From positions 124,001-188,000 of the forward strand of contig NZ_CP101988.1 of the NCBI RefSeq assembly GCF_024508335.1: 64,000 nt of DNA, given 5' to 3'. A model generated the notes under the pieces. The model was not told the DNA's origin. It ran no database searches and saw only the letters and a program-made list of their open reading frames with translations. Below are positions 40,304 through 46,055 of the stretch, piece by piece. Source of the stretch: Cellulomonas chengniuliangii (GTDB lineage: Bacteria; Actinomycetota; Actinomycetes; Actinomycetales; Cellulomonadaceae). A program made the position numbers and the translations under genes. Positions within the stretch are counted from its first letter, which is position 1; each line of letters begins with the position of its first letter.

Positions 40304-41581
40304 GTGATCGACCTGCGACTCGTCCGTGAGGACCCCGACCTCGTCCGTGCCAGCCAGCGTGCCCGAGGGGACGACCCGGGGCTCGTCGACCAGGTGCTCG
40401 ACGCCGACGCCCGCCGCCGGTCCGCGCTGACGGACTACGAGCGGCTGCGCGCCGAGCAGAAGGCGCTCGGCAAGCAGGTCGCGTCCGCGCAGGGCGACGA
40501 GAAGTCGGCGCTGCTGGCCCAGGCCAAGCAGCTCGCCGAGCAGGTCAAGGCGCTGCAGGCCGACGCGGAGGCCGCCGACGTCGCGGCCGGCGAGCTCGCG
40601 CGCAGCATCGGCAACGTCATCGAGGACGGCGTCCCCGCCGGCGGCGAGGACGACTACGTGGTGCTGCGCCACGAGGGCACGCCACGGGACTTCGCCGCGG
40701 AGGGCTTCACGCCGCGGGACCACCTCGAGCTGGGCGAGATGCTGGCCGCGATCGACACCGAGCGCGGCGCCAAGGTCTCCGGCGCACGGTTCTACTACCT
40801 CACCGGCGTCGGGGCCCGCCTCGAGCTCGCGCTGCTCAACGCCGCCGTCGACCGCGCCCTCGCGAACGGGTTCACGCCGGTGATCACCCCGACGCTGGTC
40901 AAGCCCGAGGTCATGGCCGGCACCGGGTTCCTCGGCGCGCACGCGGACGAGATCTACCGGCTCGAGGCGGACGACCTGTACCTGGTGGGCACCAGCGAGG
41001 TCGCGCTCGCGGGCTACCACTCGGGGGAGATCCTCGACCTGGCGGACGGCCCGCTGCGGTACGCGGGCTGGTCGGCCTGCTACCGCCGCGAGGCGGGCTC
41101 GTACGGCAAGGACACCCGCGGCATCATCCGCGTGCACCAGTTCCACAAGGTCGAGGCGTTCAGCTACACCACCGTCGAGGACGCCGCCGCGGAGCACCGC
41201 CGCATCCTCGGCTGGGAGGAGGAGATGCTGGCGCTGGCCGGGCTTCCCTACCGGGTGATCGACACCGCCGCCGGCGACCTGGGCATGAGCGCCGCCCGCA
41301 AGTTCGACTGCGAGGCGTGGCTTCCCACCCAGGAGCGCTACCTCGAGCTCACGTCGACGTCCAACTGCACGACGTTCCAGGCGCGCCGCCTGGGCATCCG
41401 GGAGCGCACCGCCTCGGGGGAGACGCGTCCCGTCGCCACCCTGAACGGGACGCTCGCCACGACCCGCTGGATCGTGGCGATCCTGGAGAACCACCAGCTG
41501 CCCGACGGCTCGGTGCGTGTGCCGGAAGGCCTGCGCCCCTACCTCGGCGGCCTCGAGGTCTTGGAGCCGGTGACTCGATGA
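40304..41581 (+). CDS. serS: Seryl-tRNA synthetase
   Basis: A 425-residue class II aminoacyl-tRNA synthetase charging tRNA-Ser. The N-terminal tRNA-binding coiled-coil arm spans about residues 30-100 ([20 protein letters not shown] ... [20 protein letters not shown]). Catalytic motif 2 is [33 protein letters not shown], and motif 3 is [19 protein letters not shown]. The GTG start at 40304 gives the normal N-terminus [18 protein letters not shown]. Its stop overlaps the start of the HAD gene by four bases (ATGA). Both of the tRNA-Ser genes in the window would be its substrates. Confidence 0.98.
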
Positions 41582-42399
41582 ACCACGCGCGCACCGCGGA
41601 CGGCATGCTGATCGCCCTCGACATCGACGGAACGCTGATGTCCTTCGGCGGGACGATCTCCCCCGCGGTGCGCGAGGCCGTCACCGGCCTCGTCGAGGCG
41701 GGCGCGCACGTCGTGCTCGCCACCGGCCGCTCCGTGGTCGCGACCGTGCCCGTGGCCCAGGACCTCGGCCTCGACACCGGGTGGGCCATCACGTCCAACG
41801 GCGCCGTCACGGTGCGGCTCGACCCGTCCCTCGAGGACGGGTACGAGCTGACCGAGACCATCACGTTCGACCCGGAGCCCGCGCTGCGGGTGCTGTCCCT
41901 CGAGCTGCCCGACGCGTTGTACGCCGTCGAGGACTTGGGCCGCGGGTTTCTGGTGAGCGCGCCGTTCCCTGAGGGCGAGCTCGGGGGAGACCACCGCGTC
42001 GTGTCCTTCGACGAGCTGTGCTCCGCGCCCTCGACCCGTGTGGTGATCCGGAGCCCGAAGAGCACCCCGGAGGAGTTCCACGAGCTGGTCGAGCGGGTGG
42101 GCCTGCACGAGGTCTCGTACGCGGTCGGCTGGACGGCCTGGCTCGACCTGACGCCCGGCGGCGTCTCCAAGGGCAGCGCGCTCGAGGAGCTGCGCCGCGC
42201 CCTGGGCGTCGAGCCCTTCGCGACTGTGGCGGTGGGGGACGGCTCCAACGACCTGGAGATGCTGCGCTGGGCCGCTCGTGGCGTCGCGATGGGCCACGCC
42301 CCCGAGGCGGTGCGGGCGGCCGCGGACGAGGTGACCGGGACCATCGACGACGACGGCGTCGTCGCTGTTCTGCGCGGGATGCTGTCCGCGGTCAAGTGA
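41578..42399 (+). CDS. HAD-family hydrolase (Cof type)
   Basis: A 273-residue Cof-like phosphatase (HAD-IIB). Motif I is [14 protein letters not shown] (nucleophile D15 and D17), motif [14 protein letters not shown], and motif [18 protein letters not shown] with Lys in [11 protein letters not shown]. The cap domain lies between. Such enzymes dephosphorylate sugar phosphates or flavin/pyridoxal phosphates; the substrate is not predictable. The ATG at 41578 overlaps the serS stop (ATGA), indicating translational coupling, a common actinobacterial serS-HAD arrangement. Confidence 0.9.
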
Positions 42400-42438: not shown

Positions 42439-42528
42439 TGTGACCCGATTGTGACCGATATGGGCCGTCGGGCGGAGCGCTCACGCCCGCGGTGACGCCC
42501 ATGCGTCGATGTGACTCAATCGTGACCG
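42439..42528. promoter_or_regulatory. Operator-like cluster before the sugar ABC operon
   Basis: Two near-identical 19-bp elements, TGTGACCCGATTGTGACCG (42439-42457) and TGTGACTCAATCGTGACCG (42510-42528), agree at 16 of 19 positions. Each is itself an 11-bp-spaced direct repeat of GTGAC. Between them is GAGCGCTC (42475-42482), the core of LacI-type cellulose/glucan operators (TGGGAGCGCTCCCA), inside an imperfect palindrome GGGCG...CGCCC. All lie 122-211 bp before the ATG of the binding-protein gene. Confidence 0.55.
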
Positions 42529-42649
42529 CCTAAGCCGCGGTCTGGGGTTGCGCCCGGCGTCTGACAGGGCTTCCATCACTGGAAGGCAAATGCCCGCCGA
42601 CCAGGACTTTTCCCACTCTGGCGGCGGACCACGACGAGGTGGAGGTCAG

Positions 42650-44014
42650 ATGAACAGCATGGGTAGACGCCGCAGCAGGGCCACAGCGGTCAGCGCGGCA
42701 GGGGTCCTCCTTCTGGTGGGGGCGTGCGGCAGCAACGACGAGGGATCCGCGGAGGAGACGGCGGCCGCGATCGACTGCGCGCAGTTCGAGCAGTACGGCG
42801 ACCTGGAGGGCAAGACCGTCAGCGTCTACACGTCGATCGTGGACCCTGAGGCCGAGGAGCAGCGCGCGTCGTACAAGCCGTTCGAGGACTGCACCGGCGC
42901 CGAGATCGAGTACGAGGGCTCGCGCGAGTTCGAGGCGCAGCTCCCCGTCCGCCTCACCGCCGGGAACCCGCCGGACATCGCGTACATCCCCCAGCCCGGC
43001 TTCCTGAAGTCGCTCGTGGAGGACTTCCCGGACGCCGTGACACCGGCGGGCGAGGCGGTCGTCGCCAACGCCAACGAGTTCTACACCCCGGAGTGGGTGG
43101 AGTACGGCACGGTGGACGGCACGCTCTACGCCACGCCGCTGGGCGCCAACGTCAAGTCCTTCGTCTGGTACTCCCCGAGCGCCTTCGAGGGCGCCGGCTA
43201 CGAGGTCCCGACCACGTGGGACGAGCTCATGGACCTGAGCCAGCAGATCGTCGACGACGGGGCCATCCCGTGGTGCGCGGGCATCGAGTCCGGCGAGGCG
43301 ACCGGCTGGCCGGCCACCGACTGGGTCGAGGACGTGGTGCTCCGCACCGCCGGCGCGGACGTCTACGACCAGTGGGTCAACCACGAGATCCCGTTCAACG
43401 ACCCGCAGATCGTCACGGCGCTCGGTGCGGTCGGGGACATCCTGAAGAACCCGGAGTACGTCAACGGCGGCCTGGGCGGCGTCACGTCGATCGCCACGTC
43501 GGCGTGGAACGAGTCGGCCAACGGCATCCCCGACGGCACCTGCTGGCTGCACCGCGCGGCCAACTTCTACCAGGCCAACTGGGACGAGGGCCTCGAGGTC
43601 GCCGAGGACGGCGACGTCTACGCCTTCTACCTGCCGGGTAAGAGCGCCAGCGACAAGCCGCTGCTCGGCGGTGGAGAGTTCGTGACCGCGTTCAGCGACC
43701 GTCCCGAGGTCCAGGCCTTCCACGCCTACCTCTCCAGCCCGGAGTGGGCCAACGCCAAGGCGTCGGTCACCGGCCAGGGATGGTTCAGCGCCAACAGCGG
43801 CCTCGACTCCTCGCTGCTGCAGTCGCCCATCGACCAGCTCTCCTACGAGCTGCTCACCGACCCGAGCTACACGTTCCGGTTCGACGGGTCGGACCAGATG
43901 CCCGGGGCCGTGGGCGCGGGGACCTTCTGGACGGAGATGACCGCGTGGGTCGCCAGTGACAAGTCCGACCAGGACGTGCTCACCGCGATCGAGGCGAGCT
44001 GGCCTAGCTCCTGA
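42650..44014 (+). CDS. Sugar ABC transporter, solute-binding lipoprotein (alpha-glucoside type)
   Basis: A 454-residue extracellular binding protein. The signal peptide has the lipobox LLLVGACGSND (Cys28). Mature sequence begins EETAAAIDCAQFEQYGDLEG; further motifs are FEAQLPVRLTAGNPPDIAYI, YTPEWVEYGTVDGTLYATPL and PEWANAKASVTGQGWFSANS. This matches the alpha-glucoside (AglE-like) cluster of CUT1 sugar-binding proteins. The sugar is probably a di- or oligosaccharide; the exact one is unknown. GGAGGTCAG precedes the ATG at 42650. It is first of three genes, with the two permeases downstream and an operator-like region upstream. Confidence 0.9.
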   Translation: MNSMGRRRSRATAVSAAGVLLLVGACGSNDEGSAEETAAAIDCAQFEQYGDLEGKTVSVYTSIVDPEAEEQRASYKPFEDCTGAEIEYEGSREFEAQLPVRLTAGNPPDIAYIPQPGFLKSLVEDFPDAVTPAGEAVVANANEFYTPEWVEYGTVDGTLYATPLGANVKSFVWYSPSAFEGAGYEVPTTWDELMDLSQQIVDDGAIPWCAGIESGEATGWPATDWVEDVVLRTAGADVYDQWVNHEIPFNDPQIVTALGAVGDILKNPEYVNGGLGGVTSIATSAWNESANGIPDGTCWLHRAANFYQANWDEGLEVAEDGDVYAFYLPGKSASDKPLLGGGEFVTAFSDRPEVQAFHAYLSSPEWANAKASVTGQGWFSANSGLDSSLLQSPIDQLSYELLTDPSYTFRFDGSDQMPGAVGAGTFWTEMTAWVASDKSDQDVLTAIEASWPSS

Positions 44015-44127: not shown

Positions 44128-45117
44128 ATGGACTGGCTGATCAACGCTGGGTCCACCGGACACAAGTTCGTCCTGATGTTCGTGGCGATCATGCTGTTCG
44201 TGGTGGTGATGGGAGCGATCCTGCTGGCGGTGGACCGCCCGAAGCGGGTCCCCGGCTGGGTGGTGGCCGCGGCGTTCCTCGGCCCCACCGTGATCGGGCT
44301 GGGCTTCGGGCTGGTGTATCCCGGGCTGCGGACGGTGTGGGGGTCCTTGCTCGACAGCAAGGGCAAGGACTACGTGGGGCTGGAGAACTACGTCCGCGTC
44401 TTCTCCGAGGACCAGTTCCAGACCGTGCTCCGCAACACCCTCATGTGGGTGATCCTCGTGCCGCTGCTGGCCACCCTGATCGGGCTCGTCTACGCGGTGC
44501 TGGTGGACCGGACCCGGTTCGAGTACCTCGCCAAGACGCTGATCTTCCTGCCCATGGCGATCTCCATGGTGGGGGCCGGCATCATCTGGAAGTTCGTCTA
44601 CGAGTTCCGGCCCGACCAGCCGGGCGTCAACCAGATCGGCATCCTCAACCAGCTCCTGGTGTGGCTTGGCCTGCCGCCGCAGCAGTTCCTGCTCAGTGAG
44701 CCCGCGAACACGCTGTTCCTCATCGCGGTGATGATCTGGATCCAGACCGGGTTCGCGATGACGGTGCTGTCCGCCGCGATCAAGGCCATCCCCGACGACA
44801 TCGTCGAGGCCGCCCGGCTCGACGGCCTCCACGGGACCAAGATGTTCCGCTTCATCACGGTGCCCAGCATCCGGCCCGCGCTGGTGGTCGTGGTCACCAC
44901 CATCGCCATGGGAACCCTCAAGGTGTTCGACATCGTGCGGACCATGACCGGCGGCAACTTCGGCACCTCCGTCGTCGCGAACGAGTTCTACGTGCAGAGC
45001 TTCCGCATCCGCGACCTGGGGCTCGGCGCCGCGCTCGCGGTGATCCTCTTCGTCCTGGTGATCCCGCTGGTGATCTACAACGTCCGCCAACTGCGCATCG
45101 CGGAGGAGATCCGATGA
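44128..45117 (+). CDS. Sugar ABC transporter permease (MalF/AglF type)
   Basis: A 329-residue CUT1 permease with about 8 membrane segments; an extra N-terminal helix (residues 10-32) precedes the usual six. The EAA loop that contacts the ATPase is IVEAARLDGLHGTKMFRFIT VPSI, as in this family. The sequence DYVGLENYVRVFSEDQFQTV is a typical periplasmic segment. GGAG(C) lies before the ATG at 44128. Partners are the binding protein upstream and the second permease, whose ATG overlaps this gene's stop. Confidence 0.9.
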   Translation: MDWLINAGSTGHKFVLMFVAIMLFVVVMGAILLAVDRPKRVPGWVVAAAFLGPTVIGLGFGLVYPGLRTVWGSLLDSKGKDYVGLENYVRVFSEDQFQTVLRNTLMWVILVPLLATLIGLVYAVLVDRTRFEYLAKTLIFLPMAISMVGAGIIWKFVYEFRPDQPGVNQIGILNQLLVWLGLPPQQFLLSEPANTLFLIAVMIWIQTGFAMTVLSAAIKAIPDDIVEAARLDGLHGTKMFRFITVPSIRPALVVVVTTIAMGTLKVFDIVRTMTGGNFGTSVVANEFYVQSFRIRDLGLGAALAVILFVLVIPLVIYNVRQLRIAEEIR

Positions 45118-46055
45118 CTGCCGCGATCCCGTCCACCGCCCTCGTCGACTCCGACGCGACCGCGAAGGGCCGCACCGGCCGGCTCGGCCGCATGGACCAG
45201 CGGGCCGGCATCGCCCGCGCCCGCCTCGCGCGGCCGTGGACGTCGCTGCTGGCCGTGGTGCTGGCCATCCTGTGGACCATCCCGACGTTCGGGCTGCTGC
45301 TGACCTCGTTCCGCCCGCGCAGCGAGATCCGCACCTCGGGCTGGTGGACCTTCCTGCAGAACCCCGAGACGACCCTCGACAACTACACCGAGGTCCTGTT
45401 CGGGAGCGGCACCCAGTTCTCCACGTTCTTCGTGAACTCGGTGGTGATCACCATCCCCGCGGTGGTCATCCCCATCTCGCTGGCCCTGCTGGCGGCGTAC
45501 GCGTTCGCCTGGATCGACTTCAAGGGCCGCAACATCCTGTTCGTCGCGGTGTTCGCGCTGCAGGTGGTGCCCATCCAGGTCACCCTGATCCCGCTGCTCA
45601 CCCAGTACGTGCAGTGGGGCCTGTCGGGCTCCTTCTGGACGATCTGGCTGTCGCACTCGATCTTCGCGCTGCCGCTGGCGATCTTCCTGCTCCACAACTT
45701 CATGAAGGACATCCCGAAGTCGCTGGTCGAGGCGGCGCGGGTGGACGGCGCCGGGCACGTGACCATCTTCTTCCGGGTGCTGCTGCCCCTGCTCACCCCC
45801 GCGATCGCATCGTTCGCCATCTTCCAGTTCCTGTGGGTGTGGAACGACCTGCTCGTGGCGCTGACCTTCGCGGGCGGCTCCCCGGACGTGGCGCCGCTGA
45901 CGGTGCGCGTGGCCGAGCTGGCGGGCACCCGGGGGGCGCAGTGGCACGTGCTGTCCGCCGGGGCGTTCATCGCGATGATCGTGCCGCTGGTCGTGTTCCT
46001 GATGCTCCAGCGGTTCTTCGTGCGCGGCCTGCTCGCCGGCTCCGTGAAGGGGTGA
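45114..46055 (+). CDS. Sugar ABC transporter permease (MalG/AglG type)
   Basis: A 313-residue CUT1 permease, second subunit of the channel. The N-terminus TKGRTGRLGRMDQRAGIARA is basic and cytoplasmic; the helices follow (SLLAVVLAILWTIPTFGLLL), and the EAA loop SLVEAARVDGAGHVTIFFRV LLPLL is present. A long periplasmic segment, ENPETTLDNYTEVLFGSGTQ, precedes helix 2. The ATG at 45114 overlaps the previous stop (ATGA), so the two are translationally coupled. No ATPase gene follows; in actinobacteria a shared MsiK-type ATPase is usual. Confidence 0.9.
   Translation: MTAAIPSTALVDSDATAKGRTGRLGRMDQRAGIARARLARPWTSLLAVVLAILWTIPTFGLLLTSFRPRSEIRTSGWWTFLQNPETTLDNYTEVLFGSGTQFSTFFVNSVVITIPAVVIPISLALLAAYAFAWIDFKGRNILFVAVFALQVVPIQVTLIPLLTQYVQWGLSGSFWTIWLSHSIFALPLAIFLLHNFMKDIPKSLVEAARVDGAGHVTIFFRVLLPLLTPAIASFAIFQFLWVWNDLLVALTFAGGSPDVAPLTVRVAELAGTRGAQWHVLSAGAFIAMIVPLVVFLMLQRFFVRGLLAGSVKG

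Follow-up and report, generated by a model that had tools for sequence, protein, structure and literature searches.

A conserved GTnAC-type direct repeat upstream of a sugar ABC transporter operon in Cellulomonas chengniuliangii is a candidate site for the response regulator MtrA

Results

The two elements and the operon

A sugar-type ABC transporter operon of Cellulomonas chengniuliangii is preceded by a deeply conserved 19-bp element (TGTGACTCAATCGTGACCG, positions 42510–42528, forward strand, half-sites 42511–42515 and 42522–42526), which from its sequence is predicted to be a promoter-proximal activator site for an OmpR/PhoB-type response regulator; MtrA is the most likely binder, a naming to which we give about an even chance. 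Positions refer to the stretch of 64 000 nucleotides that was analysed, hereafter the window. A second element (TGTGACCCGATTGTGACCG, 42439–42457, forward strand, half-sites 42440–42444 and 42451–42455) lies further upstream. The initial annotation had described the pair accurately: the elements are identical at 16 of 19 positions, each contains GTGAC repeats 11 bp apart and their starts are separated by 71 bp. With two half-sites and an 11-bp period, both have the form of the GTnAC-n6-GTnAC class of boxes (MtrA/GlnR/AfsQ1).

The operon, on the forward strand, starts with a gene encoding a 454-aa sugar-type ABC substrate-binding lipoprotein (42650–44014, start codon chosen by us), followed by two permease genes of the BPD_transp_1 type (44128–45117 and 45114–46055). 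The lipoprotein was NgcE/AcbH-like at scores below the family cut-offs and had no Pfam match. Its upstream neighbour is an open reading frame for a HAD-type hydrolase (41317–42399, forward strand, true start probably later), giving the order serS, HAD, element, operon; in Cellulomonas massiliensis (L259) the same series also contains LacI, between HAD and the element.

The two elements are non-random and conserved. Exact GTGAC-N6-GTGAC was found on the two strands of the window at these two places only; 300 dinucleotide shuffles gave a mean of 0.32 exact matches, at least two matches in 14 shuffles and two within 120 bp in none of the 300. When one mismatch was allowed, no enrichment was seen in the window (3 matches against a shuffle mean of 8.5). 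In the whole 3.57-Mb genome GTGACNNNNNNGTGACC occurred five times, two of them being these elements, versus no occurrence of the reversed pattern. The sugar regulon that a genome-wide motif scan might define was thin in this one genome, where the strict motif GTNACNNNATNGTNACC had four matches: the two elements, L042 and L043, the last inside long open frames. A search at three mismatches (7 matches versus 1 for the control) was uninformative. At L042 (G000:C1:1813326-1813342) a relaxed match has a LacI-like gene on one side and a GH6 cellulase gene on the other. Two other kinds of element were considered and rejected, an RNA element (Rfam matches at gathering level in the window were three distant tRNAs only) and a CRP-type site, the latter by reasoning alone.

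Conservation across the family and beyond

Orthologs of the sugar-binding protein were present in 138 of 150 family genomes, and upstream regions within 450 bp of the gene were read for 112 of 142 ortholog places (32 + 80). A comparison across the family, suggested earlier as a check, found the motif of the elements conserved before orthologous operons, so that the first of the two refuting conditions set beforehand does not hold: the core GTRAC-NN-AATY-GTKAC was present at no more than one mismatch in 66 of the 112 regions (54 exact, 12 with one mismatch), versus 0 of 111 control stretches taken 1000–1450 bp upstream, whose best match had four mismatches (none at three or fewer). A further 12 regions carried the core with two mismatches; the other 34 had three to six, and the 22 of those with five or six are at chance level. 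Among 56 distinct copies, for which the search imposed the half-sites and left the spacer free, the AATC spacer held 1.25–1.78 bits per base. Box, LacI gene and operator were all missing from 28 of the 112 regions (for example L088, L091 and L094); some lineages have rewired this transporter.

A scan of 84 980 genomes, which may omit records of the window's own genome, for GTGACNNAATCGTKAC with TTGC 21 bp later returned 45 stretches, 38 of which precede the same transporter gene as judged by eye from the start of the downstream protein. These came from Cellulomonas, Cellulosimicrobium, Jiangella, Phytoactinopolyspora, Haloactinopolyspora and Kineosporia, together with three MAGs and one record titled Sphaerisporangium, and thus reach the orders Micrococcales, Jiangellales and Kineosporiales plus a Frankiaceae MAG; the family assignment of Phytoactinopolyspora and Haloactinopolyspora is assumed here. 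Proteins from 19 of the 38 loci were aligned and were 50–91% identical to the binding protein of the window. The other seven stretches comprised one at a ChvE-type sugar-binding protein gene (L249), one at an SsgA-type gene (L245), one at rpf1 of Corynebacterium bouchesdurhonense (L279), and four that come from non-actinobacterial records and are regarded as chance matches.

Extra copies of the element occur in the window's genus, with two boxes in the window and three upstream of the gene in both of its nearest relatives (L014 and L015). The proximal element is the ancestral copy, duplicated in the window.

Direct-repeat form and promoter geometry

The third bases of the two half-sites were complementary in only 8 of 77 boxes, and at L129 three consecutive half-sites follow one another at 11-bp steps (GTGAC-N6-GTGAC-N6-GTTAC, some 145–119 bp before the gene). 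The element is therefore a direct repeat, in the OmpR/PhoB mode, and the factor class first proposed, a response-regulator-like protein reading an 11-bp direct repeat conserved before orthologous operons, is probably right. An inverted-repeat reading was ruled out by the same third-base pairing and triple array. They also make a palindromic operator, GTAACG-N4-CGTTAC, bound by a dimer-forming factor with no relation to OmpR proteins, very improbable, as does the asymmetry of the AATC spacer, although 8 of the 114 matches to the family pattern described below read GTAACGGAATCGTTAC.

Promoter geometry was read at the 64 loci with an R/K-type box (R and K being the third bases of the first and second half-site), the hexamer being chosen by our own score among those starting with TTG 5–44 bp after the 16-bp core. 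At 62 of the 64 the best-scoring hexamer followed the core at 9–10 bp (5 loci), 20–21 bp (47) or 31–32 bp (10). This -35-like hexamer reads TTGC in most of the 64, and a partner hexamer, in most loci TTGCAT or a near match, stands 17 or 18 bp further. In the window the predicted -35 hexamer is TTGCGC (42548–42553, forward strand), 21 bp after the proximal core, and the predicted -10 hexamer, across a 17-bp spacer, is TTCCAT (42571–42576, forward strand), with TTGCAT in many relatives; our guess places the start of transcription near 42583. The spacings step by about one helical turn, as expected of a class I activator that touches RNA polymerase from one face. We infer activation and the promoter from this geometry. 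A 16-bp inverted repeat, CTTCCA-TCAC-TGGAAG (42570–42585), overlies the predicted -10 hexamer and is imperfect in L014 and L015; it is possibly a new operator or a product of chance.

A LacI layer in relatives, and the GAGCGCTC core

A LacI gene lies directly upstream of the operon in 64 of the 112 orthologous loci, and in every one of the 64 a TGNAANCGNTTNCA operator was found at no more than one mismatch; we take it to be a LacI-family operator of the cre type, and it covers the -10 region. Among the 48 loci without LacI the operator was found in 4, and a GTnAC-N6-GTnAC box in 16. From this co-occurrence of LacI gene and operator, and from the persistence of the box without LacI, the simplest reading is that different proteins serve the two layers. 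In the 53 loci with both, the start-to-start distance from box to operator was 50–51 bp (38 loci), 39–40 bp (5) or 61–63 bp (10).

The adjacent LacI gene and the TGNAANCGNTTNCA operator are absent from the window, L014 and L015; in the window no copy of TGNAANCGNTTNCA was found at up to one mismatch. A sequence at 42562–42575 on the forward strand, TGACAGGGCTTCCA, shares, when read by hand, 8 of the 10 positions that are fixed in TGNAANCGNTTNCA and starts 51 bp after the start of the element, as in relatives; it is probably a decayed LacI operator. The lineage of the window has lost the LacI gene and its operator, and has kept and duplicated the GTGAC element.

The initial annotation had suggested combined control by the GTGAC elements and GAGCGCTC (42475–42482, forward strand), the core of CebR/CelR operators, which was read as the middle of a palindrome and as a LacI-type operator core. 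GAGCGCTC is itself palindromic, but the outer arms CGGGCG/CGCCCG, read by eye, are out of register with it, so no longer palindrome is centred on GAGCGCTC. That a CebR/CelR-type LacI protein acts there together with the GTGAC elements is hardly credible: GAGCGCTC does sit between the two elements, but it occurs in only 7 of the 112 orthologous upstream regions and in neither L014 nor L015, no LacI gene adjoins directly upstream in the window, and GGGAGCGCTCCC at up to two mismatches is found in the window no more often than by chance (11 versus 17.9 expected), the local copy itself carrying two mismatches. Counted three times in the window and not conserved, GAGCGCTC is probably outside the system. 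What survives of the idea of joint control with LacI is the layer in relatives, acting through TGNAANCGNTTNCA and lost in the window.

Candidate regulators

The factor that the initial annotation could not name can be narrowed, by sequence resemblance, to MtrA or GlnR. The genome encodes MtrA (NF040689, 389.9 bits, cut-off 300). Excerpts of the literature give the Streptomyces coelicolor MtrA site as G/T-T-G/A-A-C-C-N5-G-T-G/T-A-C-N (PMC5650626), a consensus that has no counterpart to the conserved AATC spacer. Third bases of the half-sites were left free in the search that gave the 77 boxes, and in 72 of these they are R and K, as in that consensus; the sixth base is C in 23 of 56 distinct copies and, in the window, C in the upstream element and T in the proximal one.

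Searched against the 150 family genomes, GTRACNNAATYGTKAC, in which the R/K third bases were imposed, gave 114 matches versus 1 for the reversed control, 62 before the transporter and 52 elsewhere. Of the latter, 40 were fetched, with the neighbour checked by Pfam/NCBIfam profile in 14 and by eye from the translation start in the rest. They included seven with NlpC/P60-type genes downstream, seven with G5/DUF348 rpf-like genes on the other strand, one before an SH3-domain secreted protein, eight before a heptad-repeat membrane protein, four before sugar-type binding proteins, three before F5/8C-domain proteins and one each before urtA-, ROK-, TIG-, LuxR-type and response-regulator genes; five (L181, L200, L208, L210 and L211) had no clear neighbour. 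The heptad-repeat loci (L193–L196, L198, L213, L215 and L217, with TIGR03057 in L194) belong to one genus, and there the element adjoins GTACCTGATAC-like repeats. At L212, in the incomplete genome G107, the pattern stands before an OmpR-type response regulator gene.

In the window's genus, where the R/K bases were left free, an NlpC/P60 gene had GTGAC-N6-GTGAC upstream in 7 of 7 genomes (7 of 25 loci) and rpf had GTCAC-N6-GTTAC in 3 of 7, the latter fitting R/K when read on the opposite strand; matches within one genus are not independent, and by our reckoning 7 of 16 random third-base pairs would fit the R/K rule in either orientation. The pattern is shared with cell-wall hydrolase and division genes of the same lineage, as for MtrA sites, whose published targets include rpf, nlpC and ssgB (excerpts of PMC3353115 and PMC13189361). 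It is this occurrence before rpf, NlpC/P60 and SsgA-type genes, together with the resemblance to published MtrA sites, that makes MtrA the leading candidate. In the same two sources, as excerpted, activation by MtrA goes with sites upstream of -35.

Some points count against MtrA. Among them are the T at base 6 of the proximal element, the AATC spacer that the S. coelicolor consensus lacks, and the 28 of 112 upstream regions in which element and LacI are both missing. Published motifs differ from genus to genus: RTAACAAT repeats are given for Corynebacterium glutamicum (PMC3353115) and GTCACAgcg repeats for mycobacteria, while the 7-bp half-site of Streptomyces venezuelae is loose, T1 and C4 being its only fixed bases (both PMC13189361), and Dietzia has a TCG-rich 21-mer. 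For C. glutamicum, repression and not activation is described for mepA, nlpC and rpf2. S. venezuelae MtrA binds its own promoter (PMC13189361, excerpt), and no GTnAC-type pair was found within 300 bp upstream of mtrA in this genome, autoregulation not being a strict requirement; the 300 bp upstream of glnR likewise held no such box. In published work the sites of GlnR and of AfsQ1 overlap with those of MtrA, and competition between MtrA and GlnR for sites is described (further cited literature: PMC12323332, PMC9599347 and PMC9602371).

The main rival reading, that the element is instead a GlnR box and puts this sugar operon under the orphan nitrogen regulator, is possible but rather unlikely. 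A GlnR-like orphan regulator is encoded in the genome, with orthologs in 143 of 150 family genomes; its closest solved structures, 8hih, 8hig and 8hml, are titled transcriptional or OmpR-family regulators and are, we assume, GlnR. Both window elements match the S. venezuelae form of the GlnR box, GTnAC-n6-GTnAC, gTnAc-n6-GaAAc being among the other published forms, and GlnR controls carbohydrate ABC transporters in other actinomycetes, binding the promoters of 13 of 20 (PMC10704036, excerpt). The match before the UrtA-type gene would suit GlnR, as would several of those before sugar-binding proteins; the many cell-wall genes among the other matches speak against it. So does the second half-site, which is GTKAC in 72 of 77 boxes, both window elements included, and not GnAAC, the b-site that most GlnR boxes have. 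The amtB promoters are expected GlnR targets. In the same genus they carry GTCAC-N6-GTAAC at 7 of 12 loci, one in each of the 7 genomes, and this box departs from the R/K pattern whichever way it is read. Two genomes without a GlnR hit keep the box: G072 (99% complete), a single case, at 15 of 16 positions (GTGACTGAATCGTTAT), and G031 (80% complete) at 14 of 16 (L147). The ammonium-transporter promoters of the genus (L160–L162 and L165–L168) share, besides GTCAC-N6-GTAAC, nearby GAAAC-N6-TTTAC-like repeats, a combination that is likely a GlnR promoter signature.

Another OmpR-family regulator, AfsQ1-like or other, is an improbable binder. The genome has eleven Trans_reg_C matches, and AfsQ1 is reported to bind GTnAC-n6-GTnAC (PMC6988585, excerpt), but many of the co-matching genes are of kinds published for MtrA.

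Discussion

We propose that a response regulator of the OmpR/PhoB type, with MtrA as the likeliest candidate, would bind the two head-to-tail GTnAC half-sites, 11 bp apart, at 42510–42528. Placed at roughly -72 to -57, before the -35 hexamer, it would activate the weak promoter TTGCGC-N17-TTCCAT and so switch on the operon. In many relatives the same promoter may also be blocked by the product of the adjacent LacI gene through its operator overlapping the -10 region; uptake would then need the sugar, to release LacI, as well as the global signal. In the lineage of the window, with LacI and operator gone and the activator site duplicated (42439–42457), the regulator would be the sole recognisable input. 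A broader proposition, put forward tentatively as somewhat less than an even prospect, is that one conserved sugar ABC importer is under direct activation by MtrA in several orders of Actinomycetes, LacI being a second input that evolution can dispense with.

If the regulator is MtrA, sugar uptake would be tied to the programme of cell-wall growth and division; if it is GlnR, nitrogen control of sugar uptake would extend to this group. It is unusual for a regulatory site to hold both its place and its helical face before one transporter gene in Micrococcales, Jiangellales and Kineosporiales, and this suggests a rule of general reach on when these bacteria take up sugar. Natural loss of LacI in the window, where the element persists, sets the two inputs apart and makes them easier to test. 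The class of site is already known, and its sugar-operon target appears to be unreported: no published report of this operon as a target was found in the open-licence literature, which is weak evidence of absence.

Among known systems, the sites bound by MtrA of the MtrAB two-component system in Streptomyces, Corynebacterium and Mycobacterium resemble the element in being direct repeats of GTnAC-type half-sites, in the 11-bp period (Streptomyces and Corynebacterium), in lying upstream of -35 when activating and in having rpf, NlpC/P60 and ssgB-type target genes; unlike them, it precedes a sugar ABC operon, has a strongly conserved AATC spacer and is paired in relatives with a LacI operator. 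GlnR boxes at carbohydrate ABC operons, such as agl3EFG of S. coelicolor (GlnR and Agl3R), share the GTnAC-n6 spacing and the arrangement of a global OmpR-type regulator with a local repressor, whereas the window has no GnAAC b-site, the local repressor of relatives is LacI-type and not GntR, and agl3EFG is repressed by GlnR while activation is predicted here. With CebR/CelR operators the window has in common one occurrence of the 8-bp core, without the matching flanks, the core conservation or the adjacent regulator gene. The cre-type LacI operators correspond to the second layer, lying over the -10 region in all 64 loci with an adjacent LacI gene; in the window that layer is decayed, and it is distinct from the GTGAC element.
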